Source: Candidatus Poribacteria bacterium
GTDB taxonomy: Bacteria > Poribacteria > WGA-4E > WGA-3G
NCBI GenBank assembly: GCA_022822085.1
Contig: JAJECK010000007.1
Span: 1-47,605, forward strand
Direction of reading: 5' to 3'
Length of the DNA: 47,605 nucleotides
The position numbers were made by a program, and so were the translations under genes. Shown piece by piece: positions 6,341 to 41,858 of the stretch. Numbering within the stretch: position 1 is the first letter of the stretch; every line of letters begins with the position of its first letter. The notes below the pieces were generated by a model that did no database searches, had not been told where the DNA came from, and saw only the letters and a list, made by a program, of their open reading frames with translations.

Positions 6341-6402
6341 GAAGATGTGGGATTCTTGTTTTTGCATTGCTACCCGCAGTGTAAATTATACCAGTTTTTT
6401 GT

Positions 6403-6430
6403 TTGACACACTCATTAAATATGATACAAT
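6403..6430 (+). promoter_or_regulatory. Sigma70-type promoter for the DUF5069 gene
   Basis: TTGACA at 6403-6408 and TACAAT at 6425-6430 are separated by 16 bases. They lie in the divergent gap between the reverse-strand protease gene and the DUF5069 gene. The start codon at 6480 is about 50 bases downstream and preceded by AAAGGAAA. This supports the later ATG over in-frame codons upstream, which lie before or inside the promoter. Confidence 0.55.
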
Positions 6431-6479
6431 ATCGTTAGTAGATATGATACCACATTTTCAAATTGAAAGGAAACGAATT

Positions 6480-14207: not shown

Positions 14208-15032
14208 ATGGAGCAGAAATTTACAATAGAACCACCAGGAGAAGTGAAAGAACATCCTTTTCCACCAACCCGTCCTGATATTTCAATAGTTGAAAGTTCG
14301 GATAAAATCTATGAGGTAGATTGTCAGGAGTTGCAGTGGTGGTTTATGATTCCCAAGATGGGTGAACGTTATATGTGGGCAGAATATGATGGTGAAACAA
14401 ACCAGTTGGACGCTGTTACTGAGATGATACCGACAATGCCTGCAATTATACGGGATATTGACTGCGTTGAAATCCAGTTCAAGGAATACCTTGCGAATGA
14501 TTGGCCACCGTCACCGGATTTGATGTATGTTACGATTGATGAAACGCACACAAGATGGATTTCTGTGGTAATGACTTTAGATGGCAAACGGATTTACAAT
14601 TCAGTTGGTGACGAATGGTTTGAAGACCAGTGGGGACCTGATGGTAAACGCCAAATCGTAGATGATGGAAGGTATGAAGTACAACCCGATGGTTCCTATA
14701 AAACCACAGATGGCGTAGGGATAGGTGCTGGCACGTATGATGTGACGATAGGTGAAAGGACCTTTCACTGTCTACGTGTTTTATATCCTGATCTTGATGC
14801 AGAACATGGTGGGGAAATGTGTGAGGTATATATTGAGGAGGGTGGCCGCACTGTTTTCTTTAGACGATATGATGGACGTTATTTACGGGGTGATTTGCTG
14901 AAAAAGTTTCCGAACAATCGTCGTGTGGTGATTGACGACATCACCTATATCCATAGTAATTGCACAGGTTGGTTTCACGATACAATTACGTTGGCATCTC
15001 TTGGTATGACTGGTAATCAACAAATAGAATAG
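14208..15032 (+). CDS. Unrecognised cytoplasmic protein
   Basis: The protein has 274 residues with no signal peptide, membrane segment or repeats. I do not recognise a family. It is acidic and rich in aromatics (QELQWWFMIPKMGERYMWAEY, SVGDEWFEDQWGPDG). Strand-rich stretches include YVTIDETHTRWISVVMTLDGK, GTYDVTIGERTFHCLRVLYP, CEVYIEEGGRTVFFRRYDGR and RVVIDDITYIHSN, suggesting a mainly beta fold. GGAG lies 10 bases before the ATG. It stands between the repeat region and the giant TPR gene, 150 bases upstream of the latter. Codon use matches the neighbours, so it is probably a real gene. Confidence 0.7.
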   Translation: MEQKFTIEPPGEVKEHPFPPTRPDISIVESSDKIYEVDCQELQWWFMIPKMGERYMWAEYDGETNQLDAVTEMIPTMPAIIRDIDCVEIQFKEYLANDWPPSPDLMYVTIDETHTRWISVVMTLDGKRIYNSVGDEWFEDQWGPDGKRQIVDDGRYEVQPDGSYKTTDGVGIGAGTYDVTIGERTFHCLRVLYPDLDAEHGGEMCEVYIEEGGRTVFFRRYDGRYLRGDLLKKFPNNRRVVIDDITYIHSNCTGWFHDTITLASLGMTGNQQIE

Positions 15033-15182: not shown

Positions 15183-18100
15183 ATGTTTGCTAAAAAATAC
15201 ACAATCTTGTTTTGTATCATATCTGTTATTTGCTCAAGTCTTTTTATTCCTATGCTGAGTTTTTCACAAGATGAAGCGACTGACGAAAAAATCATTGAGC
15301 GATACAAATTGATGCTCATTCAGAAACCTAAAGAGGGGAGTACTTTTGATAGGCTCTATCAGTTTTATCTTGAGGATGCGGGTTTAGATGCAATGGTGTC
15401 TGATTATCAATCTGAAGCTCAAGCAAAACCTAACAATCCGAACATTCAACTTATCTTGGGGCATATCTACAAACGCCTCGGCAAGGATAAAGATGCACTC
15501 ACTGCGTATCAACGTGCTGTAGAGTTATCACAAAATGATTACTACGCACATTTTGCATTAGGGCAGTTGTACGTGATACTCCGTCAACATGAAGATGCCA
15601 TTAGCGAATTGACGAAAGCAGCATCGTTATCAGAACAAACACAGACTATCTCTCCCGAAGAATTAACAGATATTTACAAGACACTTGGACATGCGTATTT
15701 TAGTCGAGATATGTTAGATGAAGCGATTAAGGCGTGGGAAAAGATCTCGGCACTTGATCCTGATGATATCTTTGCACGGACTGAACTTGCTGACCTTTTC
15801 CGTGAGCAGGAACTTTATCCACAAGCCATTGCTCAATACGAAGCAATCATTAATATAAAGAAAGATGACACATACCGTAAATGCCTAAGTATGCGGGAAA
15901 TTGGTAAACTATATGAAGAATCCGGGGAATATCAAAATGCATTGAAGCAGTATGATGGAGCGTTAGACCTAACCGCACCTGGCAATTGGCTCAGAAAAGA
16001 TCTGCAACAAAGGATCATTGCTATTTATTCGGCTGATGCTAACTGGAAAGACTTAATCGTTTATTATACAGGCAAACTTGCTACAAATCCGAATGATACT
16101 GAAACACTCGGTCTACTTGCTGGAGCGTATATTGAGAATCAGCAGCTTGAGGAAGGCATTGGGACATATAAGAAAGGGTTGACGCTTGCCCCAACAGATA
16201 CGAGTCTTCGGCTTAACTTAATTGGTGCGTTTCGGGATTCGGAAAAATATGAAGATGCGGCTGCGGAATATGAAGCACTTAGTGAACAACACCCTGATGA
16301 CATAGGAATTTATCGTGAACTTGGGAAATTGTATTTGCAGCTTGAAAATGAAGTAAAGGCGAGAGAAGTTTATCAACGTATGATTGATCGTGATCCTGAG
16401 GGTGCTAACATATACATTACTCTTGCTGAGATATACGCTGGACACGAATGGCTTGAAGATGCTGTAGCTGCGTACCAAAAGGCAACCGAACTTGATCCAG
16501 ACAATCTTGATTATATTGAATATTATGGCGAATTTTATTATAGACAAGGAGATCGTAATAAAGCAATTGAAACTTGGAATCGGATGGTTGCGGCAACCAA
16601 AAACAGTGCAGAGAATTACGACCGTCTGGCGCGTCTGTTTGAAACGAAGAAGTTCTCCGATGAAGCGATTGGGGCGAGCAGAAAAGCGGTTGAACTGATG
16701 CCTGAAACTTACCGTTTCAGAGAAGCGTTAGCCAAGCGACTGATGAACGATGGGCAATATGACGAGGCACTTATAGAATACACTGAAGCGTTGAAACTTG
16801 CCCCGAATACGTTTTTTGCTGAACAGATGGACGATAAACTGATTGAACTCTATAAACGACAAGGAACGCTCCTTAAAAAGATAGAGGAAATTGAAACAGA
16901 ACTTGATAAAGCCGGTCTCGCTGATAATGACAAATTTGTACAACAAAAACGGCTTGCAAAGATGTATCTGAAGTTAGGAAATACGACCTACGCGCTGGAA
17001 ATTCTCTTGAAGGCGAAAAAACTGCAGCCCGACGATATAAATGTGAATCGTTGGACAGCGAATGTTTATATCAAACAGGGAAGACGTGATGAAGCGGTTA
17101 CAATCTACCGTCATTTAACAGAGATAGATAACGCCAATGCGCGTGAGTATTATTCTAATATCGCAAATATCCATCTGGAAGCCTTGAATTTTGAGGAAGC
17201 GACTGCGGCAGCGAAGCAAGTCATCGCGCATAGTCCGCGTAATCCGGAGGGGCATCAGTTACTTGCACAAATCGCTAAACAGTCAGGTGATTTCGATTCA
17301 TCTGCGAATAGTTTTAAGCAAGCAATTCGTTTACGTCCAGAAGCGATTGATGTCCGCAAAGAACTTGCTCAACTGTACCATGTTTCAGGTAAATTCAGAC
17401 TTGCAATTGCGCAGTATTGGCGTTGTTGGAACCTAAGCAACAGTGTTAGTGACAAACTGAGTTTCATTAATCCACTTGGTGAAGCATATTATAACTTAGG
17501 TAGGCGTTCGGAACTGGCAGAAAGACTGAAGCAGATGGTGAAATCTAATACATCTGGTATTGTCCCTGTCTTAGCACTTGCTCAGGTCTATCGGAGTGAA
17601 GGCGATCTATCAAGTGCGCGGTTCCAGCTTGCCCGGGCATTAGATCAGCAGCGTAACAATCCAGAACTTTTGTACCAACTTGTTGGAATTAGTTTAGACC
17701 TTGCCGATATTGATGAGGCGTTGAGTTACCAACAGCAGCTTGTCAAGGTAGATCCTGATCCTATACATTTACAAAAACTTGGCGAACTCTTATTTGATGT
17801 TGGGCGCGAACAAGAAGCTGTTCAGACATGGTCAAAAGTGTTGCATCAAAGGAAACATACACTTGATGCGGAAATTAGACTTGCGAAATTACTGATAAGA
17901 CACGGTTTAATGGAGGAAGCTCTCTTTGCTCTTGACAACGCAGCGGAAAAGATATCTGATTCCGATGCTCATATTGGGTTATACCGAATCGGCGCGACAT
18001 TAGTTAACATGAGCGAACCTGAAAAAGCGTTACCATACTTTCGGCGCATTATTGAGATGTCAAAGCCTGTCCTCGAACAGGGTGTGGAACAAGGTGTGGC

Positions 18101-21100
18101 AACATCTACGAAAAAAACAAAGGCTACTAATCCCAATTCATTTTATGGTCCACCGGGGATAAACACGAACAAACTTCATCTTGCGACTATTCTCTCACAT
18201 CGTGTGCAAACTCAGCAATATTCTACAAGAAATGTCACACCGTGGTTACCGAACACTTTTGAAGAGGCACAAGCCGCAGCACTTGTGCAGTTGAAGACGA
18301 TTTCAGATGATCTTGGGAAATTGGATGAGATGTTTGTTGAATTTGAAGAAAAGGGCACCACGAATCCCAAGGATGTCCACACCCTTGAACTATTAGCACA
18401 ACTCTATATCTTGACAGAAAATCAAGAAAAAACCGATGAAGTCTTAGATAAATTGATTGTTGCGTCTCCTAATAATTTGGTCTACCGAGGCATTAAGTTA
18501 AAATCGTTGGTTAATCAAGAAGAGTTCAAATACACTAATTTAATAAATTATCTTGATGAGATGGCCGGATTGTCAACAGATGGTAAAAATTGGTATCTCT
18601 TAGAATATGCCTCTATATTCATGAGTCAAGGAAAACGTGATACCGCCGACAAACTTTTGGATGAGCTTGAGGAAATGAATGTGCTTCATCTCAGTAATGG
18701 TCATAAATTGGTTGATCTTTTTGTGAGAATGGGACGGATAGAACAAGCAGAAAAGAGACTTTCAGAAATTTCTGTAAGTGCTGCTTCACAACATTCAAGC
18801 CAGTATATTCGTAACTATGAAACGATTATGAATACTTATCTGAGCAATGGAGAGACTGACAAAGCCATAGAATTCTTTTGGAAGTATATTGAAAAGACAA
18901 ATCCTAAAGTTACCAGTGGAAGGCACGTAGCAAGTTTATCTTATTCACCATACTATTCGCAAACCCAGAGATATCAGACCAATTACCCATCACCTTCATT
19001 ATATTATAGCCAGACTCGGTTAAATAGTCTGCAAAGGTTTTTTAATAAAGTATGGATCAAGGACCAACAAGAATTATTCTATACATCATTAGAGGCTAAA
19101 TACAATGGGGCAGAAGGCAGAAGTCGTATCTATCCGGCATTAGCAATCAGTTACTGTAAATGGTGGGATGGACAACGCGCTAAATCGCTTGATGTGCTTC
19201 ATCAGTTGCAAACGGAATTTCCAGATGACCTGACACTCAAAATGAACACAATATTTGTTTCAATCCAATCTGGGAAACACAATGTCGCATTAGAAGTGCT
19301 ACAGGAACTAATTCAAACGGATCCGAAGAACCTCTTTCAATATTACGATTTGACGTTACAAATTGCGACGTATTCAGGTGATTCGTCTGTAGTGCGTGAG
19401 TTGATGAAACACCTGCTAAACTCTCCGACAAGTGTGCAGCAGCTTTACGGTTTCTCTCAGAAATTGCAAGCTGCAGGGTTCACACAGTACGCTGCTGCGG
19501 TCTCACAAAAAGCGATGGATTTAGCCCTGAGAGAAAGGGATCCAGGTTTCCTAAGACAATTTAGCACTCATCTAAACGATTTGGGACGCGGACAGGATGC
19601 TGCACGTTTGGTGCAGCGTGCAGTGAAGTTGGAAAATTTGAAAGCACTATCTGGGCAAGCATTACCGGTGCGGAATACTGGCACAATGACATATACGCCA
19701 AAACAGCTTAAAGTGATACAGGACAGAGAGACGAAATTAGTCAAAATTGCAGAGCAGAATCCGAAATCATTCAAAGCTCAGTCCAATTTAGCAGCATACT
19801 ATTCACGTAGAAATCAGGTGCAGAAAGCAATAGAGACGTATCAGGCAGCACTTGAACTCCGACCGAATGATAGTACGTTACGCAATCAATTCGCAGACAT
19901 GTTACGGCGAGTCGGAGAAGTTAAGAAAGCAGTTGAGCAATACACATATTTACTAAAGAACAACATCTCCAGTTCACAATACGGTTATTACCAGTATGAA
20001 TATATCATAGAGACATTTATCCAAGCAGGTGAAATAAACAAACTTATTTCAATTGCCAAAGAAATGGTTGAGGACAGTCAAAATTATGGACGTAGGTATG
20101 AATTTGTTCAAAGAATTGCCCAACATTTCAGAAACAGTGATAATGTCAAACCCTTGATTGAGATATATGAAAAAGCAGTCGAGTCTGGGTCAGAGAATTA
20201 TTTTAATGACTTGGTTTCAGCATACATTTCTACTGGTAACCGTGATAAAGCAAAGCAACTATTGGTAGATAAACTCAAGACTGGACATGTAGAAAATCAA
20301 ATTAATGTGATACTTAGGTTATCTGAAGTAGATGATAGTTTAGTTGATTTGAACAATTTGGTAACAGAATACGAGGAGAAGTTTCCCGTTGATTCTGCTG
20401 AACCATCAATGTTATATCTGCTTGCGATCTTGAATATAGTAACAAACGATATAGAGGATTCAGATACTTATGTTGAAAAGCTGCTGCATGACATTCCTAA
20501 AAATACACGATTGCGGTGGCTCAATACTATTGCAAACACTTATCAGAAAAAATCACAGTCGGATCGCCAACTCCGTTTACTTGAGGCTGCTATTGAAAAC
20601 GTAGATCCTAATAATACGTCATATCTATCAGGTATATACGAGACACTTGGTACGATTTACACTGACAAAGGAGAAAAAGAGAAAGCCAAGAATGTCGTCC
20701 GAAAGTCGGGGCATCTCCGTCTGATGCGTAGTGGTGGTCCCCGTTATTGGGAAAAAGAATCAATTGCCCGAACTTATATGGAGCACGGTATGTATGACGA
20801 AGCAGAAGTGCTGTTGATAGAGGTTATCAATGACTTATCTGCACAATCTTATTATAGGGAACGTGCCCAAGAGCAATTAGCAACTATCAGACTTCAACGG
20901 GATGGTCCGGATGCTAACTCCGATGTGAATAACCAAATGGAAGATATGAATATTGCTTTACTCCGAACAAAAGCAGAGGAACATAGGAGAAGACGAAATA
21001 ATTACGAGGCAATAAAAGTCTATGAACAGATAGTCAAAAAAGTGCCAGACGACCTTGCCTCACGCGCAACACTTGCATCTCTTTACAACGAACAAAATCA

Positions 21101-24100
21101 ACCTGATGAATCAATAGAAATGTGGGATGCCTTGCTAAAAATTGATCCTGAGAATACTAAATATCAGGATGGACTTGTTGCCGCATACAAAAGTTCAGAT
21201 AGAATTGATGAAGCGATTCAATTGGCACAAGGATATATTCAAGAGAATCCAGATATTGGTTTATATCATTCTCGACTGGCAGATTTATATGCATCTAATG
21301 GACAAAATGATGCTGCGATTACAACCTATAAAAAGGCAATTGAACTTACCCCGAGCGATGCAAAATCGCATGAGGAATTGGCAAAGGTCTATGTGAAAAT
21401 AGGTGATGATGAAGCTGCGGAAAAGTCGTATAACGATGCCCTAAAATACGCTGCGCCTGGAAGTAATCAAGCGAAATTAAGACAGAATCTGATGAAGATA
21501 TACCAACGTCAAGGAAAGTTAGAGGAGGTATTGAAGCAAGCTGAGGAACAGGGCACACTGACATTTGATATGCAAAGAGAAAGGGCACGTATTTATCAAA
21601 ACAGTGGAAAGTTGGAAAAAGCAGCGAGTGCTTACCAGAAAGCCTTGGGAATGACAGCAGACAGATATGCACGCGGTGATATTCAACGACAATTGATTAC
21701 TATCTACTCAAATCTCGGTAAATTAGATGAATATCTAAAAGAAGCGGAGGAACAAGGGGCAATATCTTTTGAGATGCAAAAGGAGATAGCGCGGAGATAT
21801 CAGAATAATCGTGAATATGAAAAAGCAGCAAATGCATATAAGAAGGCGTTACAAATGACGACGCAGTCGCATGAGCGGCATCAACTTGACCGAGAAATGA
21901 TGAGAATGATTCGACAATCTGGGAAGATAGAACAATTTTTAAAAGAAATGGAAAAGGATGGTACGCTGTCTTCTGAGATGCAAATGGAACTTGCCAGACA
22001 CTACAGTTCACGCGGTCAATCCAAAAAAGCGATTGAAGCCTATAATAAGGCATACGATATGACAAATTCAACTGGAGACCGAGAGGAAATAACAACTCAG
22101 TTGATGCAAGAATATGTCCGTCTTGGTGATACAGACAAACCAATAGAGTTATATGAAAAACTCATTAGTAATGCCTCAGATAGACGTTCAAGTACTTCAT
22201 ATAGTGGACTTTCTGGATTCAGAATAATCTCTGACAAAGATCAGGCACGCGAATCTTTGATTCACGCCTTTAAACAGAATAGAAAAATCAGCGAACTTGA
22301 ATTGATTTTCAACACTAAATTGGAAAGCAATCCGGAAGATCCAGATATTCTTTTATTAATTGCAGAGATACACCGTTATTCAAACAAACATGAAAAAGCT
22401 GCGGAAGTCTATCAGTCTCTAACTAAGATAGAACCGAATAATCTTCAACACTACTATTATGCTGCCGCGTCTTTGTACAAAAGCGAACAGAAAGAACAAG
22501 CGAACGAACTCATCAAACAAGGAAATAGTGCGCTTTCATCAAGTTCAAATAATAAAGATGCGATGCTCTTATGTACGCTGGGATCAATTTGCTATGAAAG
22601 CAAGATGTACGAACCAGCGATTGCATTGTTCGAAGATGCAGCCAAAGTCCATGAAATATCTGGGATCAATGACAGTAATAGATGGCAAAATCAGAATATC
22701 TATGAAACACTTGGAAGAAGTTACATGGAAACCGAGCAGTATGAGAAGGCAGTTGAAGTATATCAACATTTGAAGAAAATATCGTCAAGCAGTTACACGA
22801 AAGAGAATGCAGATAAGGCAATAAAACGCGCTTATGATGAAGGGAACCTTCACGAAAAACAAATCCCAAAACATTTGGAAAAAGTCAAACAGAATCCGAA
22901 TGATGTGAACGCGAGAATTACGCTTGCAGAGAGTTATGAATCCAGTGAAAGGTATGATGAGGCTATCGCGCAGTATGAGAAACTCAGTGAATTGCAACCT
23001 AACTCTCCGAAATGGCACAAGACTATCGGGGATTTATATGGAGAGACGAACAATACAGAACGGTTACAAAAGGCAGCTGCTGCTTATGAGAAAGCAATTG
23101 CACTTGATCCGAATTCGTATGAATTCTATGACACTTTAGCAAAGTTGTATTCGGAAAATGGTGATTCTGCGAAAGCCGAAAGTGTCTTTCTGCGAGTACT
23201 GAATGTTTCCCAAAATCCTAAAGAACATGATAGGATTGTCAATGCCATTTTTGAGCTTCACGATCCAAAAACGTATGTGGAAAAACTGAAAATATTGGAA
23301 AGTCTTCAAGCAAAAACTACTCACAGCATACTTCTACATAGGTTATTAGGTGATGTCTATTTAGGTGATGGAGATACTGATAAGGCACAAATTTCATACA
23401 AGAAATGGTTAGAAAAAACTAATAATAATCATGGAAGGGAATTACATCAACTCGCTGAAAGTCTGATGGATAAAAACAAATTACCAGAAATTGCATTAGA
23501 AGCAGCCAAACAAGCAACGGACATCAACTCGGATTCAATCAATATTACCACATTAGGAAATGCCTATCTGGTTAATGAGCAATATGAAGAAGCATTTAAG
23601 CAATTTGCACTTAGTATTAATCTCAGGGATCAATCTGGAGGCTTTCGTGGTAATCAAATCGAACCTCTACTGAGACGTATTTCACATGTGAGTAAGAATA
23701 TAAAGGATAATACACAGTATCAGGAACTGATGGGTAAATTAGTTGCTTCAATCTCGACTGGTGTTGAAACTGAATTAGATACGAACTTACTATTGGCTGA
23801 GTTCTGCCGTGAACTCCAATTGACTGACAAGGCAAAGGAATTCATGCAGAAAACAGGTTTCTTCCCTGAAACTGCATGGTTAACACTCGGTCCTTTTGAT
23901 AATACCAAAGGTGTAGGATATAGTACTGCTTTCATACCTGAAGAACAGCCGCAGATTGATAAGTCTGCTGAATATGATGGTATAGCAGGGAAGATAAAAT
24001 GGGGTAAAGGTTCAGATGAGACTTTTGATGGGTTCTTTGATTTTGGCAATGATGAGAATTTCTATGCTGCTTATGCCTGGATTTCATTTACATCCCCTGA

Positions 24101-24356
24101 TGAAAGGAAAGCAGAAATTCGATTTGATAGTGATGACCAAGGCAAAGTATATTTGAATGGGAAAAAAGTATATGCACATAGAAGAACCCGTGGGGCATCC
24201 ATTGACCGTCGGACTATCCCTATAACGCTTGTTACAGGAGAAAACACGATTCTTGTCAAAGTCTGCAATGAATCTCTGCCATGGGGATTTTACTTGCGTA
24301 TTACAGATACGGATGGAAAACCTTTTGACGATTTGAAAATCGTTAATGAAGATTAA
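15183..24356 (+). CDS. Giant exported TPR protein (3057 residues) with C-terminal beta domain
   Basis: A Sec signal peptide (MFAKKYTILFCIISVICSS, then LSFSQ) is followed by several dozen TPR helix pairs from about residue 35 to 2890, with typical A..Y..AIELDP endings. Residues about 2064-2335 are four tandem 68-residue units (see 21372-22187). The last 160 residues (from AWLTLGPFDNTKGVGY, about 2896) form a separate domain with EIRFDSDDQGKVYLNGKKVY and GFYLRITDTDGKPFDDL. This resembles galactose-binding or PA14-like beta sandwiches and is shared with the 716-residue gene downstream. AAGGAG lies 8 bases before the ATG. It probably acts as an extracytoplasmic scaffold binding proteins along its superhelix. 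The partner is unknown. The reading frame is intact across 9.2 kb. Confidence 0.88.
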   Translation: MFAKKYTILFCIISVICSSLFIPMLSFSQDEATDEKIIERYKLMLIQKPKEGSTFDRLYQFYLEDAGLDAMVSDYQSEAQAKPNNPNIQLILGHIYKRLGKDKDALTAYQRAVELSQNDYYAHFALGQLYVILRQHEDAISELTKAASLSEQTQTISPEELTDIYKTLGHAYFSRDMLDEAIKAWEKISALDPDDIFARTELADLFREQELYPQAIAQYEAIINIKKDDTYRKCLSMREIGKLYEESGEYQNALKQYDGALDLTAPGNWLRKDLQQRIIAIYSADANWKDLIVYYTGKLATNPNDTETLGLLAGAYIENQQLEEGIGTYKKGLTLAPTDTSLRLNLIGAFRDSEKYEDAAAEYEALSEQHPDDIGIYRELGKLYLQLENEVKAREVYQRMIDRDPEGANIYITLAEIYAGHEWLEDAVAAYQKATELDPDNLDYIEYYGEFYYRQGDRNKAIETWNRMVAATKNSAENYDRLARLFETKKFSDEAIGASRKAVELMPETYRFREALAKRLMNDGQYDEALIEYTEALKLAPNTFFAEQMDDKLIELYKRQGTLLKKIEEIETELDKAGLADNDKFVQQKRLAKMYLKLGNTTYALEILLKAKKLQPDDINVNRWTANVYIKQGRRDEAVTIYRHLTEIDNANAREYYSNIANIHLEALNFEEATAAAKQVIAHSPRNPEGHQLLAQIAKQSGDFDSSANSFKQAIRLRPEAIDVRKELAQLYHVSGKFRLAIAQYWRCWNLSNSVSDKLSFINPLGEAYYNLGRRSELAERLKQMVKSNTSGIVPVLALAQVYRSEGDLSSARFQLARALDQQRNNPELLYQLVGISLDLADIDEALSYQQQLVKVDPDPIHLQKLGELLFDVGREQEAVQTWSKVLHQRKHTLDAEIRLAKLLIRHGLMEEALFALDNAAEKISDSDAHIGLYRIGATLVNMSEPEKALPYFRRIIEMSKPVLEQGVEQGVATSTKKTKATNPNSFYGPPGINTNKLHLATILSHRVQTQQYSTRNVTPWLPNTFEEAQAAALVQLKTISDDLGKLDEMFVEFEEKGTTNPKDVHTLELLAQLYILTENQEKTDEVLDKLIVASPNNLVYRGIKLKSLVNQEEFKYTNLINYLDEMAGLSTDGKNWYLLEYASIFMSQGKRDTADKLLDELEEMNVLHLSNGHKLVDLFVRMGRIEQAEKRLSEISVSAASQHSSQYIRNYETIMNTYLSNGETDKAIEFFWKYIEKTNPKVTSGRHVASLSYSPYYSQTQRYQTNYPSPSLYYSQTRLNSLQRFFNKVWIKDQQELFYTSLEAKYNGAEGRSRIYPALAISYCKWWDGQRAKSLDVLHQLQTEFPDDLTLKMNTIFVSIQSGKHNVALEVLQELIQTDPKNLFQYYDLTLQIATYSGDSSVVRELMKHLLNSPTSVQQLYGFSQKLQAAGFTQYAAAVSQKAMDLALRERDPGFLRQFSTHLNDLGRGQDAARLVQRAVKLENLKALSGQALPVRNTGTMTYTPKQLKVIQDRETKLVKIAEQNPKSFKAQSNLAAYYSRRNQVQKAIETYQAALELRPNDSTLRNQFADMLRRVGEVKKAVEQYTYLLKNNISSSQYGYYQYEYIIETFIQAGEINKLISIAKEMVEDSQNYGRRYEFVQRIAQHFRNSDNVKPLIEIYEKAVESGSENYFNDLVSAYISTGNRDKAKQLLVDKLKTGHVENQINVILRLSEVDDSLVDLNNLVTEYEEKFPVDSAEPSMLYLLAILNIVTNDIEDSDTYVEKLLHDIPKNTRLRWLNTIANTYQKKSQSDRQLRLLEAAIENVDPNNTSYLSGIYETLGTIYTDKGEKEKAKNVVRKSGHLRLMRSGGPRYWEKESIARTYMEHGMYDEAEVLLIEVINDLSAQSYYRERAQEQLATIRLQRDGPDANSDVNNQMEDMNIALLRTKAEEHRRRRNNYEAIKVYEQIVKKVPDDLASRATLASLYNEQNQPDESIEMWDALLKIDPENTKYQDGLVAAYKSSDRIDEAIQLAQGYIQENPDIGLYHSRLADLYASNGQNDAAITTYKKAIELTPSDAKSHEELAKVYVKIGDDEAAEKSYNDALKYAAPGSNQAKLRQNLMKIYQRQGKLEEVLKQAEEQGTLTFDMQRERARIYQNSGKLEKAASAYQKALGMTADRYARGDIQRQLITIYSNLGKLDEYLKEAEEQGAISFEMQKEIARRYQNNREYEKAANAYKKALQMTTQSHERHQLDREMMRMIRQSGKIEQFLKEMEKDGTLSSEMQMELARHYSSRGQSKKAIEAYNKAYDMTNSTGDREEITTQLMQEYVRLGDTDKPIELYEKLISNASDRRSSTSYSGLSGFRIISDKDQARESLIHAFKQNRKISELELIFNTKLESNPEDPDILLLIAEIHRYSNKHEKAAEVYQSLTKIEPNNLQHYYYAAASLYKSEQKEQANELIKQGNSALSSSSNNKDAMLLCTLGSICYESKMYEPAIALFEDAAKVHEISGINDSNRWQNQNIYETLGRSYMETEQYEKAVEVYQHLKKISSSSYTKENADKAIKRAYDEGNLHEKQIPKHLEKVKQNPNDVNARITLAESYESSERYDEAIAQYEKLSELQPNSPKWHKTIGDLYGETNNTERLQKAAAAYEKAIALDPNSYEFYDTLAKLYSENGDSAKAESVFLRVLNVSQNPKEHDRIVNAIFELHDPKTYVEKLKILESLQAKTTHSILLHRLLGDVYLGDGDTDKAQISYKKWLEKTNNNHGRELHQLAESLMDKNKLPEIALEAAKQATDINSDSINITTLGNAYLVNEQYEEAFKQFALSINLRDQSGGFRGNQIEPLLRRISHVSKNIKDNTQYQELMGKLVASISTGVETELDTNLLLAEFCRELQLTDKAKEFMQKTGFFPETAWLTLGPFDNTKGVGYSTAFIPEEQPQIDKSAEYDGIAGKIKWGKGSDETFDGFFDFGNDENFYAAYAWISFTSPDERKAEIRFDSDDQGKVYLNGKKVYAHRRTRGASIDRRTIPITLVTGENTILVKVCNESLPWGFYLRITDTDGKPFDDLKIVNED
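21372..22187 (+). repeat. Four in-frame 204-base (68-residue) repeat units
   Basis: Within the giant TPR gene, the segment ending G(T/A)(L/I)(T/S)..(M)Q recurs with its CAA codon at 21573, 21777 and 21981, exactly 204 bases apart each time. A fourth unit follows without that ending. Each unit holds two helix pairs, one of them ending AA.AY.KAL.MT. The paralogue at 27022 has only two such units, so the block expanded here. Confidence 0.75.
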
Positions 24357-24387
24357 AAAATGAATTAGAGCGTATTTCATAATCACT

Positions 24388-24463
24388 TGTAGGGGCGGGG
24401 TCTCCCCGCCCGTTTAGAAGAATCCTTTCTATATAATAGGGACGAGGTAACATCGCCCCTACG
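24388..24463. repeat. Nested palindrome with GGGCGGGG hairpin
   Basis: TGTAGGGGCG at the left and CGCCCCTACGA at the right form outer inverted ends. Inside, GGGCGGGG-TCT-CCCCGCCC (24393-24411) is a perfect GC-rich hairpin. It lies 32 bases after the giant TPR gene stop. It could end or stabilise that message, but no T-run follows. It opens the gene-free gap 24357-24842. Confidence 0.6.
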
Positions 24464-24538
24464 ATGAAGGTGTCCTATTATGATTTATGAGATATACTGT
24501 AGATCCTTATAGAATTTTACTCGGTGCTAATAAGGTCC

Positions 24539-24570
24539 GAGATCATCGGTATCAGTTCAAAAAGATTATC
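24539..24570 (+). repeat. 32-base segment repeated in inverse at 13685-13716
   Basis: GAGATCATCGG followed by TATCAGTTCAAAAAGATTATC matches the reverse complement of 13685-13716 at 31 of 32 bases. In both places it is part of a short open frame reading RDHR(Y/C)QFKKII. It is a dispersed repeat rather than a gene. Confidence 0.65.
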
Positions 24571-24598
24571 ACGTATTTGTGGTTCTTCAGTCCCGTAC

Positions 24599-24702
24599 GA
24601 AGATTAAATAATAATTTCGGTGATGTGGCGAGGTTAGGAAGAAATCAAGAAATCAAGAAATCAACGGTATGAATGCCATTTAGGCATTCCCCGCCTCGCC
24701 AG
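24599..24702. repeat. Dispersed palindromic element, single GGCGAGG unit
   Basis: A GAAGATTAA...TTTCGGT arm is followed by a 74-base unit bounded by GGCGAGG (24627-24633) and CCTCGCC (24694-24700). Inside are AATGCC-ATT-TAGGCATT and the string AACGGTATGAATG, which is the inverse of the strings in the three tandem units at 41651-41858. AAATCAAG is stuttered. It is an inverted single copy of that element in the gap before the 716-residue gene. Confidence 0.7.
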
Positions 24703-24842
24703 TAGGAGCACAACTGCCCTCGCCCAAATGGTATAAACATGATCAGATGTCTACGCTATAAGAAAAAACACCAAACTGCATCCGAAAATGTGTATATATA
24801 GTTTAACAAATTTCTATTTGCAAAATCACATGGAGGAATTAG

Positions 24843-26993
24843 ATGAAAAAATACAGAAATTGGGTGTTCTCCCTATTCTTTCTATGTTTCAGTATAACAT
24901 CACCTTTATTTTCTCAAGAGAAGGTGAATGAGGAGAAAACAGATCAAAACAATCAACAAACAAAAGTTGAAAATATTGAAGATGTAATTGATGTTGCATT
25001 AGATTTAGACGGTGAATTGAGTTACGTAGAAATTGAAGACAGTGAATTATTAAACAAAATTAACGGACAAGTAACGGTGTGCGCTTGGATTAAACCGACA
25101 AACTTTCCCACCCGATATCTACCGATCATCTACAAAGGTGATGAACGTATGCCCGGTATCACAAACCGTAGTTTTACGCTGTATTTACGACATGATGGGG
25201 CATTGCAATTCGCTTCTTCGCCTGATGGTAAAAACGAAAAGTATATCTTCTCACCACAGGGGGCAATCAAACTCAATCAATGGCATCATGTCGCATGTGT
25301 TATTGACACGACGAGAAATATTATCAGTGTATATGTTGATGGTGTGGAAGCAGGTTATAGAGATTTTGGCAGAAACAGAAGATTTTATGAAAGTACCTTA
25401 CCTTTAAAAATCGGTGGCACACATGAAGAGACCAATCACAACCACAGATCATTTGTCGGACAAATTGATGAGGTAAGTGTATGGGACGTTGCCTTGACTG
25501 AAGAGCAAATCCATAATTTTATGGATAGCCGTATGACAGGAAATGAAAGAGGATTAGTCGGTTATTGGAAATTCGATAATCAGAATGATGGCGAAATTTC
25601 CGATATAACTCACAATAAACTCAATGGCAAGTTAGTTGCCAATGCAAGGTTAGTAGATTACATCCGTCCTATTCCGAAAGAACTAAATCCGGAACAACTT
25701 GCAGAACATGTAATCCTCTATGAAAAAGCACTCAAACGTGGCACAAATTCTTATGAGATATACCGTACACTTGCAGAAATATATGTCAAAACAGGACAGA
25801 CTGCTGAAGCAGAAAAATTATATCTACAATCTTTTGAGGTGGATCTCCAACAGTCTGAACATGATGAGGCTATGAAATCTCTTTGGCAATTATATGATGC
25901 TGCGGGAAAAGAAAAAGAATTTATCACACTATTGGCAAAGTTGAAACCGAAAATGAAAGAAAGTTCAACCCTATTTGAACTCTTAGGTGATGCTTATACC
26001 GAAGTCGGTGACAAGCCAAATGCTAAGGATGCTTACACACAATGGATCAATCTGCGAAAAGACGAAGTTTTTCAGCAAGGTCTGTCATCTGCCTATTATG
26101 AACTTGCGGATAAACTTCTTGAGAAAAACATGTTTCCTGAAGTTGCGTTAGAGTTGATTTTGAATGCGACAGATTTTGAACAAGACACAGATTACATATT
26201 AGTGATTGCACATGCTTACGTCGCAAATGAACAGTATGATGATGCGTTCCGCATCATAAAGAACATCTATGACATGTCGTATCTGCCATTTGTTGAACGT
26301 AGACTATTAACGCGTGTTGTGAAAGCCGGGAAAACTGTCAAAGATAAAGAAGGATATGAGAATATGTTGAATGAACTCATAGAATCCTTGTCTGACAATT
26401 TACGTTCACAACTCCATACCATGCTTGTTTTAGCACAAACCTATCAGGAAGCTGGAGAACATGAAAAGGCTGATAAACTCATTCGGCAAACAGGATTCAT
26501 CACCGAAGATGCATGGTTGGTTCTCGGTCCTTTTGATAACGTGGGTGGTATAGGCTACAATACACCTTATATCCCAGAAAACCTACCGATGATTGATACT
26601 TCCAAAGAATATGAAGGCAAAAATGGGACGGTGCGTTGGCAAAAGATAAAGAATATTTCACTTTTGGGAGATATCCGTTTGGGTAAAGGGACAGATTGGA
26701 GCGTTGCGTATACTTATGCGACAGTCCATTCGCCTGAAGAACGTGAAGTGGAATTTCGGTTTGATTCAGATGATCAAGGCAAAATCTGGGTGAACGGTAT
26801 TGAAGTGTTTGCACATACGAAGGCGTTTACTGCCGAAATTGACAATTTCAAATTTCCTGTAAAACTCAATGCGGGGTTAAATAGCGTTCTCGTCAAGGTA
26901 TGTGAAGAGACAGGTGGTTGGGGTTTTTATCTAAGAATCACCGACAAAGACGGTAATACTTTTGATGATTTAGACTTCATGAAAGTAGAATAA
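24843..26993 (+). CDS. Exported LamG-TPR protein with C-terminal beta domain
   Basis: The protein has 716 residues. A signal peptide (MKKYRNWVFSLFFLCFSITS, then PLFSQ) precedes a LamG domain at about 50-265 (LDLDGELSYVEIEDSE, VCAWIKPTNF, NQWHHVACVIDT, GQIDEVSVWDVALTEEQI, GYWKFDNQNDG). TPR-like helices follow to about 550. The final 160-residue beta domain (AWLVLGPFDNVGGIGY, EFRFDSDDQGKIWVNG, GFYLRITDKDGNTFDDL) is clearly homologous to the end of the giant protein. The TPR part aligns with the C-terminal TPRs of both neighbours. GGAGG lies before the ATG. The next gene starts 28 bases after the stop, so the two are probably co-transcribed. LamG suggests glycan or protein binding outside the cell. 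No enzyme motif is seen. Confidence 0.88.
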   Translation: MKKYRNWVFSLFFLCFSITSPLFSQEKVNEEKTDQNNQQTKVENIEDVIDVALDLDGELSYVEIEDSELLNKINGQVTVCAWIKPTNFPTRYLPIIYKGDERMPGITNRSFTLYLRHDGALQFASSPDGKNEKYIFSPQGAIKLNQWHHVACVIDTTRNIISVYVDGVEAGYRDFGRNRRFYESTLPLKIGGTHEETNHNHRSFVGQIDEVSVWDVALTEEQIHNFMDSRMTGNERGLVGYWKFDNQNDGEISDITHNKLNGKLVANARLVDYIRPIPKELNPEQLAEHVILYEKALKRGTNSYEIYRTLAEIYVKTGQTAEAEKLYLQSFEVDLQQSEHDEAMKSLWQLYDAAGKEKEFITLLAKLKPKMKESSTLFELLGDAYTEVGDKPNAKDAYTQWINLRKDEVFQQGLSSAYYELADKLLEKNMFPEVALELILNATDFEQDTDYILVIAHAYVANEQYDDAFRIIKNIYDMSYLPFVERRLLTRVVKAGKTVKDKEGYENMLNELIESLSDNLRSQLHTMLVLAQTYQEAGEHEKADKLIRQTGFITEDAWLVLGPFDNVGGIGYNTPYIPENLPMIDTSKEYEGKNGTVRWQKIKNISLLGDIRLGKGTDWSVAYTYATVHSPEEREVEFRFDSDDQGKIWVNGIEVFAHTKAFTAEIDNFKFPVKLNAGLNSVLVKVCEETGGWGFYLRITDKDGNTFDDLDFMKVE

Positions 26994-27021
26994 TAATTCA
27001 TTTCATAAGGAGATATTGTAA

Positions 27022-30000
27022 ATGTCATGTTCAAAATTGTCTTTCTGCTTTGTCATTCTCATTTTGATCACAGTAGGTGCTTTCATAGCAGGACTTGAAG
27101 CACAAGAGACTGAAGAAAATAGCACACCCTTAGAAGAATTCGTAGAAAGAGCGCAGGCGTTAGTGAGACGGATGCAATTGGAGGAAGCAATAGATATCTA
27201 CGAACGAATTGTGATAGCAGCCCCCACAGACTATGCCTCTCTTCTGAATCTCGCTATTCTATATTCACGCACAAATCAGCACGAAAAAGCCGCACAAACC
27301 TATAGTGAACTACTTGAATTTGACTCAGAAAATATAACCTATCAAGATGGACTTGTTAGTAACTTACAAGCTGCTGGCAAACACGACGAGGCACTTGAAC
27401 TCGCACGGTCATACATCCAAACAGAGCCAACAGTAGGCGAACATTACGCACGCCTTGCAAAGTTTCATGAAGTTGAAGGTAATGAAGCTGCGGCGCTCAC
27501 TAACTATAATAAAGCAATTGAATTGGATCCTGGTGATAAACAAACGTATCTTAAGCTCGCAAGACTTAATTTTTTGAATGAGGACATGGAGGCTGTAGAA
27601 ATGGCATTGAAGGATGCCATTCTATCAACCCCATCTGAATCGGAGCGGCAAGATATTGAAAGTCAATTGATCAGTTTTTATCGCTACCATGGGAATTTAA
27701 AAGAGAAGTTACAAGAAGCAGAAGATGAGGGTACAATCACATTCCAGATGCAGAAAGCCTTTGCCGAATACTATCATAAAATAGGAGAATTGGAAAAAGC
27801 TACTGATGCTTATATCAGAGCACGCGACATGACAACCAGTTCCTATGAGATAGATAAGATCTATGCTGAATTACTTAAGGTATATGTACAACTTGATGAT
27901 ATAGACGCAGTTATAGAACCTTATGAAACTGAGGTGAATTCATATACAAACAGCGAAATACTGGCTTTCACATCGGAAAGAATCGCAGTGACGACTTCAA
28001 GAATTGCGGCGGTATACAAATTTGAGACTGAACGCGATTTATTGATTGATGCTTTCAAAAGCCAAGATAAACTTGATGTGTTAAAAGCATATTATGAAAG
28101 TGAACTTAGAGAAAATAAAGAGCATCCTACTGCACGAATAATATTGGCAAGAATATATTGGGATGAAAAGGATTATCAGAAATCTGCTGAAATGTATGAA
28201 GCACTGGGAAATTCAGAAACAGACAATGTCCGCTATTTTTATTATGCTGCAGCGGCATTGAAAAGAAACAAACAACCTGAATTAGCCAAAGAAATGATCA
28301 ATCAGGCGAAAACAGCACTTGCATCCTGCAGCGTGAAAGATGATGCGTGGTTTCTCGGTTCACTCGCAACAATCTGCATTGAAAATAGGGTGTTTGAACC
28401 TGCAATTGAACTTTCCAAATCCGCGATTGAAATGAGTGATAGCGAAAGAGAGAGTAGGATTCTGGATACTTTGCACGGAATACTTGCGAAGAGTTATCGT
28501 GAGACAAAACAGTACGAAGAAGCTCTTGACATATATCAGCAAATGGCAAGCGAGGAAGGCTATAGCAGCATACGAAATATGGCAAATAACGCTATCCGAG
28601 AAATCACCAAAGAGCCAAAACTATATGAAAAATTGCTACCGGAACAGCTGAAGAATGTCGTAGAAAACCCCGACAATCCAAAGTTGATCCAGGAACTTGC
28701 GGAGAGTTATGAAGCCGTAGATAGAATCAAAGAAGCAATTGAGCAGTATGAAAAACTGACTAAACTTCAACCTGAAAATAGTCTGTGGTACAGAAAGTTG
28801 GGAGATCTGTATCAAGAAGTGGATCGGGAGGTAGACGAGGTAGTAGAGGACAGCGCACTTAGTTTAGATGGAGATGGGAGTTACGTTGAAATCGTGGACA
28901 GTGAAATCATAAACAATATATCCGAACAAGTTACGGTATCTGCATGGATCAAACCAACAGATTTTCCAAACACCTGTACGACTGTACTTTTCAAAGGCAA
29001 CAAACGAACACCTAATCTTACGCATCGTCAATTCGTGCTCTGGTTGTTTGATGAAGGTTTAGTTTATTTTGACGCATCGCCAAATGGACAATTTATAAGA
29101 TGGATTGCGTCTGCAAGTGAAACTATCCAAAAAAATCAATGGTACCACGTAGCAGGAACCATTGATGCAAAGAATGATAGCATCAAGTTATATCTAAACG
29201 GTGATGAAGTCAGTAGAAGTAATTTTAAGGGAGAGACCAATTTGACTAAGACCACACTGCCATTACGTATCGGTTGTTCGCATGAAGAAGAAATATCTGA
29301 GCACGCATCATTTGCTGGACTAATTGATGAAGTCCGGGTTTGGAACATCGTGCGTACTGAAAATCAAATTCGTTCCGATATGAATAAGCAGCTGCAAGGA
29401 GATGAAGCCGGTTTAGTCGGATATTGGAAATTTGACGCAGAAATTGAAGGACGCGTGTCCGATAGTTCACTCCATAAGCATGATGGCAGACTTGTCAGAA
29501 ATGCAAAGATTGAACCTTACAACCGACCAGTGTTGGTAAGTTTAACAGCTGAGAACTTGACAAAGGCTGCATCCTATTATGAAAAAGCGATTGAACTCAG
29601 ACCAACTACGGACCAGTATTACGATCGGTTAGCAAAATTGTATATAGATCAAAACCAGATATCAGATGCTACTTATGTATATCTGCGAGCATTAGATGCG
29701 CCTTTGGGACAAGCAACCCATGATACATTAATTCACGCTATCTCCAAACTTTACACTGATGAAGGGCAAGAGGATAAACTCATTGCTATCCTTGAGGAAG
29801 TAGAACCGAAAATGCAGCAGAGTATCGTCCTGCACGAGCTTTTGGGTGATCTCTACAAAAAAACAGGTGATGTTAATAGAGCTGAACTTGCGTACGCTAA
29901 GTGGTTGAAATTGAGAGAGCAAGAGGTGAACGTACAGAATGCAAATTACCATCGTTGGTTTGCTGAAGAATTACTTGATAAAGGTATCTTTCCAGAGACG

Positions 30001-30279
30001 TCACTTAAATATGCGTTAAGTGCCTTACATGGCAATACAGAGACGAGTTATCTCTATCCAATGACACTTGGACATGCGTCCGTAGCGAATGGACAATATG
30101 ACGATGCACTTAGATATTACAAATATGCGCTCAGTATTCTATCTACCGACGATTCCTTAGACTATTTTTGGGAACAGATTGCTGATGCAAGTGAGAATTC
30201 AAAAGACAGAAAACGTTACAAGCAAATGTTAGAAGCTTTGAAAAATTCTATTCCACGTGACTTGTCAAGTTCTGAGTAA
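27022..30279 (+). CDS. Exported TPR protein with LamG inserted between TPR blocks
   Basis: The protein has 1085 residues, with a signal peptide (MSCSKLSFCFVILILITVG to LEAQE). The first TPR block (about 35-600) is collinear with residues about 1920-2625 of the giant protein, but with two instead of four 68-residue units. A LamG domain (about 611-830: ALSLDGDGSYVEI, VSAWIKPTDFP, NQWYHVAGTID, LIDEVRVWNIVRTE) sits where the giant protein reads straight from GDLYGE to AAAAYEKAIAL. TPRs then resume (KAASYYEKAIEL) to the end. It lacks the shared C-terminal beta domain. AAGGAG precedes the ATG. It follows the 716-residue gene by 28 bases and precedes the LRR gene by 59, so it is part of one transcription unit. 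Confidence 0.88.
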   Translation: MSCSKLSFCFVILILITVGAFIAGLEAQETEENSTPLEEFVERAQALVRRMQLEEAIDIYERIVIAAPTDYASLLNLAILYSRTNQHEKAAQTYSELLEFDSENITYQDGLVSNLQAAGKHDEALELARSYIQTEPTVGEHYARLAKFHEVEGNEAAALTNYNKAIELDPGDKQTYLKLARLNFLNEDMEAVEMALKDAILSTPSESERQDIESQLISFYRYHGNLKEKLQEAEDEGTITFQMQKAFAEYYHKIGELEKATDAYIRARDMTTSSYEIDKIYAELLKVYVQLDDIDAVIEPYETEVNSYTNSEILAFTSERIAVTTSRIAAVYKFETERDLLIDAFKSQDKLDVLKAYYESELRENKEHPTARIILARIYWDEKDYQKSAEMYEALGNSETDNVRYFYYAAAALKRNKQPELAKEMINQAKTALASCSVKDDAWFLGSLATICIENRVFEPAIELSKSAIEMSDSERESRILDTLHGILAKSYRETKQYEEALDIYQQMASEEGYSSIRNMANNAIREITKEPKLYEKLLPEQLKNVVENPDNPKLIQELAESYEAVDRIKEAIEQYEKLTKLQPENSLWYRKLGDLYQEVDREVDEVVEDSALSLDGDGSYVEIVDSEIINNISEQVTVSAWIKPTDFPNTCTTVLFKGNKRTPNLTHRQFVLWLFDEGLVYFDASPNGQFIRWIASASETIQKNQWYHVAGTIDAKNDSIKLYLNGDEVSRSNFKGETNLTKTTLPLRIGCSHEEEISEHASFAGLIDEVRVWNIVRTENQIRSDMNKQLQGDEAGLVGYWKFDAEIEGRVSDSSLHKHDGRLVRNAKIEPYNRPVLVSLTAENLTKAASYYEKAIELRPTTDQYYDRLAKLYIDQNQISDATYVYLRALDAPLGQATHDTLIHAISKLYTDEGQEDKLIAILEEVEPKMQQSIVLHELLGDLYKKTGDVNRAELAYAKWLKLREQEVNVQNANYHRWFAEELLDKGIFPETSLKYALSALHGNTETSYLYPMTLGHASVANGQYDDALRYYKYALSILSTDDSLDYFWEQIADASENSKDRKRYKQMLEALKNSIPRDLSSSE

Positions 30280-30338: not shown

Positions 30339-33300
30339 ATGAAAAAAATATTGACACTCTTTCTGATTTTATTAGTAGTATTCGGATGTTCATCCCGCCA
30401 ATATGTTGAAATTCCGGATGAGAATTTAGCTGCAGCAATTCGGGATGCCCTGAAATTACGTCAAAATGCAAAAATTCCAAAGTTGAAACTGGCAGAATTG
30501 ACAGAATTAACCGTACCAAGAAAGGGTATTAAGGACCTATCAGGTTTGGAGAATGCGGCTGAGTTAACCAGTATAGTACTATACGGTAATCAAATTCGCG
30601 ATATAACCCCACTTGCAGGTTTGAAAAAACTGACGAAGATATCAATGGGTGCCAATCAAATCAGCGACATTACTGCTTTAGGTAATATGTCGCAACTTAC
30701 GACTCTGCATCTGCCTAATAATGAAATATCAGACATTTCCCCACTTACGCAGTTACCGGAACTCAAGGAATTATCCATAGGAAGAAACAAAGTAAGCGAC
30801 ATTTCCCCGCTCTCCAAATTGACACAACTGACAGGATTGTACCTTAGCAATAGCAATATCAGCGATTTAACGCCACTTTCTAAGTTGACACAACTAAGAA
30901 ATCTGGGTCTTATAAACAATAAAATCAGTGATATTACGCCACTATCTGGTATGGTGAAGCTTCGGTCATTATGGATTGATAATAATCAGATTGAAGACAT
31001 TTCAGCACTTGAAGATATGACAATTATGAACATATTGACAATCGGTAATAACAAAATCACAGATATAACACCTTTGTCAAATATGCGTCATCCGTACAAC
31101 TTTATGTTGGCAAATAACAGGATTAACGATATTTCTCCACTTGCAGGAATAAAAGACCTTCGGCACTTAAATCTGAGTGGGAATCAAGTCCGAGATATAA
31201 CACCGCTTGCTGAATTAACAATTCTTATGGCTTTAAAACTTGATAATAACAATATCAGTGACATGGGTGTTATTGAAAACCTACAAAGATTAGAAAAACT
31301 TGATATCAAGAATAATCCAATAGAAGATTTTACGTCAATCCGCAGATTGATGAAAGAAAGATCATGGTTAGTTATTGATATTGATATTCCATCTGTAGAA
31401 ACTGATGACAACGCGCGTGCTGCCCTATTCCCAGAGGCAATACGACGGCTTGGAAAGGGTGGCATCAACATCATGCGATTTTCACCTGATGGTTCATTGC
31501 TTGCTGTAGGCACCAGCATCGGTGTGTGGGTGTATGATATAGCCACTGGTAATGAAAAAATCATGAGCATGGTTTATCCAAAGCAAGTCAACGCATTAGC
31601 ATTTTCACCTGATGGAAAAATCCTCGCAAGCAGCGGGGCCGGCAATAATATTATTCAATTTTGGAATCCAAAAACTGGAATGGAGATCTCTTCACTTCGT
31701 CCTTCTACAGATGAAAAGCATAGATTTTCGGCTGCAAGACATAACTATGCTTCAAATATGGGTTTAGCATTTTCTGAAGATGGAACAACACTTATGGGTG
31801 TAAGTAATCTAACTTCAATTTCCATTGCACATTGGGATGTCAAAACCGGTAATGAACTCGCAAAGCACTATTACCTTGATCAGGCAATAACAGCAGCAAT
31901 TCATAGTGACACAAGCACACTTGCTCTCGGACGGCATAATGGAAAAATCAACTTGTGGAATTCAGAAACTGGAAAGAAGTTAGATGTTCTCAACGGACAT
32001 TCAAAATTTTACATAAATGAGTTTCTCGCAAATCTATTTAGAAAACATAATAGACATAAGTATCAGGGGATACAAGCATTAGCATTTTCCACAGATGGCA
32101 AGATACTTGCTACATCGGGGGTAGACAATCTGGTTAAATTGTGGAATGTGAAATCTCGAAAAGTACAAAGAACTTTGATTGGACATACAGAATGGGTAAC
32201 CGCTTTGGGTTTTTCTACGGATGATAGTACTGTTGCAAGTGGTGACATCTATGGAAATATCAAACTATGGGATGTCAGTTCTGGTAGTGAACAGGTGTCT
32301 TTCAATGGTCATCGGAGTAAAGTGTCTGTACTAACATTTTCTCCGGACAGAAGGACGCTTGCAAGTGCAAGTGATGACGGTACAATTAAGTTTTGGGATG
32401 CTAATACAGTGCAAAGTCTTTCTACCGTAGCAACGGAACATACGAGATGGGTGAAATCAATGGCGTTTTCTGAGGATGACACAACATTGTCCAGTGTGAT
32501 GTTCAACGGCACAGTTCAGAAATGGAATGTGAAAACTGGACAAGAAGTGTCAGTGAGTATACCTGAAAATCTTAATCTCATATTGGCAACTGCTTTATCT
32601 CCACAGGCAAAACTTTTTGCTGCTCAAAACGCTGAACTTCGTGATAGACAAGACGGTGGTATAAGATTATTCAGCGGATCAAACCCAGGAGATTCAAGGT
32701 TTTACAGATATGGCAACAGGATTACTTTACTGGATTTGGAAAGTGGGGAATCACTTCCTTCCCTCACGCTTGAAGAAAGAAACTTAAATGTTAATATGGC
32801 ATTTTCACCGACAACTGAAATACTTGCTTGTGTAGATCAATGGCAAGATGTACGTTTGTATGATGTGAGAACTGGAAAAGAACTGTTCAAATTAGACGTT
32901 CAAATACATTCAGGAACCGAAGCAAAATTGGTATTCTCACCTGATGGGACAATGCTTGCAATAAATGGAAAACATTTTCGTCCAACACATGTATGGAACG
33001 TGGAAAAACGTGAAAAAGTTGCGACATTACCTGAAGGTGATGAGGTATTGGCATTTTCACGTGACAGTACGATGCTTGCAACCAAAGGCGACATGGTTGC
33101 TATATGGGAAATCACACCGTCCAAAGAAGTCCTTCCAATCAATGAATTCGAAGCAGAAGGTGATGAAGATCACCTTCTGTTTTCTCCCGAAGGACACATC
33201 CTACTGACCGTGGACAGGGATGGGACACTTTTGCTATGGGATATTGAAATGGCAAGTGAACTGCTGTCTCTATCATTAGGACATACAACACATATTACAT

Positions 33301-33413: not shown

Positions 33414-33429
33414 TGGAGAGAAGAAACCA

Positions 33430-38318: not shown

Positions 38319-38407
38319 AAAATTAGAGTAATCTGATTGCTTAATCCTGTTCATCTCTCCTACACACAAAAAACTGTCCTAAACCCTTGACAGTACTAAG
38401 GTTTTAT

Positions 38408-41384: not shown

Positions 41385-41650
41385 GTGAGATTTCGTTGAT
41401 TAAGCTGCTACTATATGCAAGCGTACTTCGCAAATAGTGCTACTATATGTTGATACATTCAGTTGTCGAATGTCTGAACGCTGAATGGGGCTAAATTAGA
41501 GAAACGCGTCAGTTCGGCAAGCAAAATTCACCTCTACACACATAAACCTGTCAGGACTTACGCATTTCCTCTTAAAAGTCCCGTTGAATGAAGATTAATT
41601 TTTTAATTCGGTCCTTTTTATCCGTCCGAGGCAGGTTCCCCTCCTCCACT

Positions 41651-41858
41651 GGCGAGGCGGGGAATGCCTCAATGGCATTCATACCGTTGATTTCTTCCTA
41701 ACCCCGTTCTCTTCCCAATGCTGCTGGCGAGGCGGGGAATGCCTCAATGTCATTCATACCGTTGATTTCTTCCTAACCTCGGCCTCTTCCCAATGCCGCT
41801 GGCGAGGCGGGGAATGCCTAAATGTCATTCATACCGTTGATTTCTTCCTAACCTCGCC
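41651..41858. repeat. Three tandem 75-base palindromic units
   Basis: Unit starts at 41651, 41726 and 41801 are exactly 75 bases apart. Each starts GGCGAGGCGGGGAATGCC, has CATTCATACCGTTGATTTC in the middle and ends TTCCTAACC(C/T)CG. The third ends CCTAACCTCGCC, which pairs with the GGCGAGG start. Units differ at a few positions (TCAATGG, TCAATGT, TAAATGT). Confidence 0.85.

Follow-up and report, generated by a model that had tools for sequence, protein, structure and literature searches.

How three neighbouring genes of a Candidatus Poribacteria bacterium came to share blocks of tetratricopeptide repeats (TPRs), and what the proteins that they encode do, are the questions raised by a locus on contig JAJECK010000007.1 (assembly GCA_022822085.1). 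The whole stretch of 47,605 nt that we analysed is called the window here, and it belongs to a genome of 5.6 Mb in 158 contigs. A preliminary description had read the three genes as a TPR/LamG family built by module shuffling, in which a single ancestral gene was duplicated locally and domains were gained and lost. The open reading frames of P0001, P0002 and P0003 were recovered at the starts given in that description, all on the plus strand. Family blocks were defined on the giant protein P0001 as N (residues 1-1925), M (1926-2623), C (2624-2862) and END (2886-3057), plus LamG. The genes and their modules are as follows.

14208..15032, + strand: P0007, 274 aa, with no Pfam match; adjoins the family genes
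15183..24356, + strand: P0001, giant TPR protein of 3057 aa, N-M-C-END without LamG; signal peptide by eye
15183..20957, + strand: N module of P0001 (aa 1-1925); residues 76-900 are its conserved part
20958..23051, + strand: M module of P0001 (aa 1926-2623), common to P0003 (BLASTP, M tree)
21543..22154, + strand: 68-residue unit of two TPRs, in three tandem copies in P0001 and a single copy in P0003
23052..23768, + strand: C module of P0001 (aa 2624-2862), common to P0002 and P0003 (BLASTP, C tree)
23838..24353, + strand: END domain of P0001 (aa 2886-3057), weakly similar to GH2-N/PA14 sugar-binding domains
24843..26993, + strand: P0002, 716 aa, LamG-C-END; signal peptide by eye
24963..25667, + strand: LamG (PF13385) of P0002 (Pfam), pentraxin-like in the model
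25686..26462, + strand: C-module TPRs of P0002, starting with an unpaired helix B
26484..26990, + strand: END domain of P0002, a beta-sandwich in the model
27022..30279, + strand: P0003, 1085 aa, M-LamG-C without END; signal peptide by eye
27142..28821, + strand: M module of P0003 (aa 41-600; BLASTP, M tree)
28837..29526, + strand: LamG of P0003, set into one TPR between its helices A and B
29551..30270, + strand: C module of P0003 (aa 844-1083; BLASTP, C tree)

Further upstream, a single protein with three DUF5069 domains is encoded at 6324-7763, and the minus strand at 3851-6367 encodes a protein with, by sequence, two apparent trypsin-like parts, each followed by TPRs.

The collinear blocks noted in the preliminary description were confirmed by BLASTP, with scores of 129-348 bits and a consistent order. 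P0003 aligns with the giant from about residue 1920 to the end of its TPR region, as had been claimed: residues 43-295 match giant 1930-2182 without gaps (38% identity, 171 bits), 52-601 match 2041-2623 (31%, 248 bits) and 844-1077 match 2626-2857 (37%, 129 bits), the blocks following in the same order. The match of P0002 to the giant comprises the C-terminal TPRs and end domain only (282-713 with giant 2624-3054; 39% identity, 310 bits), again as described, and P0002 38-522 aligns with P0003 598-1083 over LamG and TPRs (39%, 348 bits). Off-register TPR matches inside the same three protein pairs reached at most 56 bits, and non-family TPR proteins, drawn from all open reading frames of the fetched loci, at most 67 bits against TPR-block queries. 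The collinear matches with the giant, at 129-310 bits, lie far above these backgrounds, so the resemblance is more than generic TPR similarity, and coincidental likeness of the three proteins is ruled out. A search of a plasmid collection returned only generic TPR matches (at most 30% identity among the matches listed), and a PDB search returned engineered TPRs, OGT and similar proteins.

All three proteins carry several TPR matches above the Pfam cut-off, and helix pairs are visible in the structure models of P0002 and P0003. The Laminin_G_3 model (PF13385) matches P0002 with 99.1 bits and P0003 with 97.3 bits (cut-off 27.6). Of 76 PF13385 matches in the genome, three fall in the window, at 1278, 25011 and 28867, and thus none inside the giant; the label of a TPR/LamG family suits P0002 and P0003 but not P0001. 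When 21 M-to-C junctions are aligned, LamG falls inside one TPR, with helix A ahead of it and helix B behind; from alignment A2, the misaligned row L107 was left out before folding. The AlphaFold2 model of P0003 476-1085 (mean pLDDT 87) has a helix at 112-122, then the LamG strands, a helix at 368-384 and a regular helix pair next. In the P0002 model (mean pLDDT 84) the TPRs open with the matching helix B, at residues 283-298. The LamG slot is therefore fixed, being the loop that joins helices A and B in the TPR located at residue ~2623 in the giant. Because the first TPR helix of P0002 is an unpaired helix B, we infer that P0002 descends from a longer protein, that the whole part ahead of LamG was lost and that a new signal peptide was gained.

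The same modules recur across Poribacteria, in the fixed order N, M, (LamG), C, END. Among 94 family genes in the fetched loci, the architectures (L for LamG, E for END) were NMCE in 25, LCE in 15, NMLCE in 12, N alone in nine, MCEE in eight and NMLCEE in six, with others besides; some low-count architectures reflect genes truncated at contig ends or by frame breaks. Seven of the N-alone genes encode 1923-1950 aa and two are shorter. Compared with the giants, short members are missing N and/or M, or else END. Among these 94 genes, M-LamG-C without END is confined to the window and G046. G046, a Candidatus Poribacteria MAG (OY282386.1), was the closest relative in the contig search and the one close relative found, with a P0002 match of 88% identity. 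Module shuffling with domain gain and loss is thus borne out, through many architectures and exchange at fixed junctions, and it is Poribacteria-wide rather than peculiar to this locus.

We then asked whether the three genes were born in place, by tandem duplication of one ancestor and later domain gain and loss. The genes lie side by side in one direction with collinear blocks, G046 has the same giant-LCE-MLC order, as a gene-order comparison with related genomes confirmed, and LCE genes adjoin giants in G044, G045, G030, G032 and G042. The trees nevertheless split them. These were 'quick' trees with SH-aLRT support only, of 79 rows for C (superseding a 40-row version) and 63 rows for M. In the C tree the giant groups with operon-linked giants (15 rows; support 99, starred), P0002 falls in a LamG-C-END clade of genus-wide proteins (16 rows; 100, starred) and P0003 among NMLCEE/NMLLCEE giants and short forms (25 rows; 100, starred). 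The M tree agrees, with P0003 and its G046 orthologue sister to the NMLLCEE giants of G045 and G030 (99, starred); outside G046, the nearest kin of P0003 are therefore distal giants, and P0003 groups with these and not with its neighbour P0001; it derives from a different giant. In AU tests a single clade uniting the three window loci and the G046 orthologues was rejected (p = 5e-9), as were both tested pairs, P0001 with P0003 (p = 0.0015) and P0002 with P0003 (p = 1e-4). The AU tests and the M tree rule out a recent tandem duplication for P0003.

Each of the three genes belongs to an old subfamily of its own; they are not sisters, and the duplications predate the genus. Local duplication of one ancestral gene, as first proposed, thus fails at least for P0003, for which birth in place is largely refuted, and as an account of all three genes it is improbable. 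Since LCE genes adjoin giants in several genomes, the giant and LCE may be an old tandem pair, which makes an old tandem origin of P0001 and P0002 possible.

The LamG domains tell a different history from the modules that flank them. In the LamG tree, grouping of the P0002 and P0003 domains was rejected (p = 5e-4), as was a single LamG clade of the LamG-C-END genes (p = 0.019). Four NMLCE genes stand together in the C tree (43, not starred) and the M tree (92); their LamG domains do not (p = 6e-6, for a group picked after inspection of the tree). Because the LamG trees conflict with the C and M trees, LamG domains must have been swapped between genes. These evolutionary claims are well supported, and the apparent local duplication in the window is a single instance of a wider mix-and-match system.

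Conservation along the giant is uneven. Across 38 giants, mean identity to the window giant per 75-residue window is 63-70% over residues 76-900 and 31-54% after residue 900, falling to 5-21% in the triplicated stretch; END has a mean identity of 59%. The triplicated stretch lies in the M block, where a unit of 68 residues (two TPRs) is repeated in tandem at residues 2121, 2189 and 2257; P0003 has this unit once, and the triplication accounts for part of the giant's extra length. A conserved N-terminal part followed by a variable C-terminal part is what would be expected of a dock with variable heads, a possible reading among other reasons for such a pattern. The N-termini of P0001, P0002 and P0003 look by eye like Sec signal peptides, and the family proteins are probably exported.

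If the N-terminal part is a dock, the genes downstream offer a candidate partner. They are the following.

30339..33413, + strand: LRR-WD40 protein with a lipoprotein-type signal (FGC), by sequence inspection
33403..35511, + strand: WD40 protein with a signal peptide, by sequence inspection
35616..37121, + strand: D4175 (a label coined here), 501 aa, membrane/coiled-coil protein with no Pfam match
37335..38318, + strand: MoxR AAA+ ATPase, AAA_3 and AAA_lid_2 (Pfam)
38387..39298, + strand: DUF58/vWA protein (Pfam)
39342..41384, + strand: membrane protein with BatA N-terminal domain and vWA (Pfam)

The MoxR protein matches PF07726 with 206.7 bits and PF17863 with 59.6 bits, the DUF58 protein matches PF01882 with 142.8 bits, and the BatA protein matches PF07584 and PF13519 with 52.7 and 52.8 bits, respectively. 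Because MoxR, DUF58 and BatA match their Pfam models, we call the operon Bat-like. Promoter and terminator scans performed no better than shuffles. Beyond the BatA gene lies a 1.6-kb stretch (41385-42961) with no open reading frame of 100 aa, which holds repeats, with copies at 41940 and 42000; the 21-mer GCGAGGTTAGGAAACCTCGCC occurs 201 times without mismatch across the genome (95 + 106, against 0 for the reversed control) and is REP/MITE-like. In G046 the BatA gene is followed by a 381-aa gene that has no match in the window, and a 307-aa gene also lies downstream.

The window and G046 have the LamG-C-END, M-LamG-C and WD40 genes between giant and operon; most other genera have D4175 immediately after the giant. 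The giant gene, counted as N1, was found upstream of D4175 on the same strand and within 25 kb in 28 of 39 cases, many at about the giant's own length. Among the other 11 genomes with D4175, the two are truly separate in G044 (on the same contig, hundreds of kb apart) and lie on separate contigs in others, for which draft assembly may be the reason. Among 85 genomes, N1 was present in 39, D4175 in 39 (leaving out weak matches of 24-25% identity in G021 and G022) and BatA in 40. Giant, D4175 and BatA were all found in 38 of the 85 and none of them in 45, and two of the three were found in the drafts G051 and G019. The link between giant and operon, uncorrected for phylogeny, is strong (N1 versus D4175, Fisher p = 7e-22 with genome kinship uncorrected). 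G043 has no giant, D4175 or BatA genome-wide and no DUF58 at the locus, which keeps MoxR, P0007, two LamG-C-END genes and WD40 genes. Within the genus P0007 is 73-90% identical and keeps its position beside family genes, including in genomes that no longer have the giant (G043, G031 and G037).

This gene set resembles two known systems. In the Bat (Bacteroides aerotolerance) and MoxR-vWA operons of Bacteroides, Leptospira and Borrelia, a MoxR AAA+ ATPase, a DUF58/vWA protein, a BatA-type vWA membrane protein and a TPR protein are likewise clustered, and a periplasmic complex has been proposed for MoxR/vWA Bat operons (PMC3557215). The TPR partner here seems to differ from known Bat TPR proteins, being a giant of ~3000 aa that carries END and is probably exported, and the operon has in addition a membrane coiled-coil protein with no Pfam match. 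Scanned against P0002, the NCBIfam BatC model gave E = 0.15, below cut-off. The other comparison is with the MoxR-vWA-beta-propeller ternary conflict systems (PF20030; eLife 52696), with the TPR and propeller proteins as third components. Here too MoxR, vWA, beta-propeller and TPR genes are clustered, the third component of those systems has TPR and beta-propeller regions (PMC7159879, eLife 52696), and our MoxR matches the bpMoxR model PF20030 with 44.9 bits, above the cut-off of 27. The same protein has, however, a far higher score as a classical AAA_3 ATPase (206.7 bits), the TPR and propeller proteins bear what look by sequence like export signals, and the vWA proteins are of DUF58 and BatA types with no propeller match. 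None of the TPR or vWA proteins was recognised by PADLOC as a defence component, and membership in a known defence system was rejected on this result. We regard a ternary conflict system at this locus as very improbable. The genomic evidence points to a partnership of the giant with the MoxR/DUF58/BatA operon just downstream, an operon that the preliminary description left out.

What the variable parts might bind is suggested by LamG and END. The nearest folds to the P0002 LamG in a Foldseek search of the P0002 model were pentraxins and one putative carbohydrate-binding protein; LamG and TPR matches dominated that search, which gave no structural identification of the END fold. The END domains of the window proteins score 15.9 and 18.1 bits against GH2-N, under the curated cut-off of 28. 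Among 20 END members, 10 match GH2-N at E <= 0.05 (best 4e-5), nine match RhaB_D2 and four match PA14, and PDB profile matches were to GH2-type enzymes at a non-significant E of 0.06-0.2. T9SS-type sorting domains (TIGR04183) are reported on some poribacterial proteins (PMC3909097); the NCBIfam model matched neither END, and the idea that END is a type IX sorting domain was rejected. END is also fused to WD40 proteins in Poribacteria (L074 on its own contig C22, L064 and L051), and so it occurs on TPR and propeller scaffolds alike. To judge from sequence and models, LamG and END would be ligand-binding domains, and the heads of the scaffold may be exchangeable and sugar-binding.

Such properties would also suit a repertoire of surface adhesins or receptors with which a sponge symbiont meets its host, the link to the MoxR operon being merely positional. 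Poribacterial genomes are rich in TPR, LRR and WD40 proteins, many with signal peptides, for which a host-microbe role has been proposed (PMC3909097), and the eukaryote-like repeat proteins counted there share the high TPR, WD40 and LRR content seen here. That paper counts domains; LamG, laminin and MoxR did not turn up when its text was searched, and the section consulted describes no modular giant family. The pentraxin-like LamG and its swapping, and C-terminal blocks that vary while N is conserved, are consistent with such a repertoire. A merely positional link sits poorly with giants that occur in nearly the same genomes as D4175 and BatA, and with an operon order that is common in other genera, and we consider this reading unlikely, though less so than birth of the three genes in place or the ternary system. 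A host-interaction role and a partnership with MoxR are not mutually exclusive. Side-by-side genes for giant extracellular proteins are likewise described, in the abstract of PMC12863079, for the giant surface proteins of Apilactobacillus kunkeei; this is another phylum, and the likeness is one of description. In the open-access literature, outside which most subscription journals lie, we found no paper on this family or its MoxR link.

Taken together, we favour, as somewhat the more probable account, an old modular family of probably exported TPR-solenoid proteins whose giant member is the scaffold of a Bat-like MoxR/vWA machine. The conserved N-terminal ~900 residues of the giant would dock on the extracytoplasmic side of the machine, and its variable C-terminal TPRs, together with the pentraxin-like LamG and the galactose-binding-like END, would recognise glycans or proteins of the cell surface or the host. 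Having no N dock, P0002 and P0003 could then serve as accessory binders or assembly partners. The exported scaffold role is what these observations suggest for the family, and the interacting surface or periplasmic scaffolds of the preliminary description are in this respect plausible. More tentatively, a Bat-like machine may have had its exported TPR part turned into a scaffold of ~3000 residues, with a conserved dock, two fixed slots (the A-B loop and the C-terminus) and heads swapped between paralogues in lineage-specific sets.

MoxR/BatA operons are widespread and their function is unsettled; in the words of one study, 'Bat function remains elusive' (PMC3557215). A partner that is co-present with the operon and offers a long conserved region as bait would give a direct route to the target of the machine. 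The family also shows clearly how domains are exchanged at one site within a repeat of a solenoid, and it offers many natural variants.
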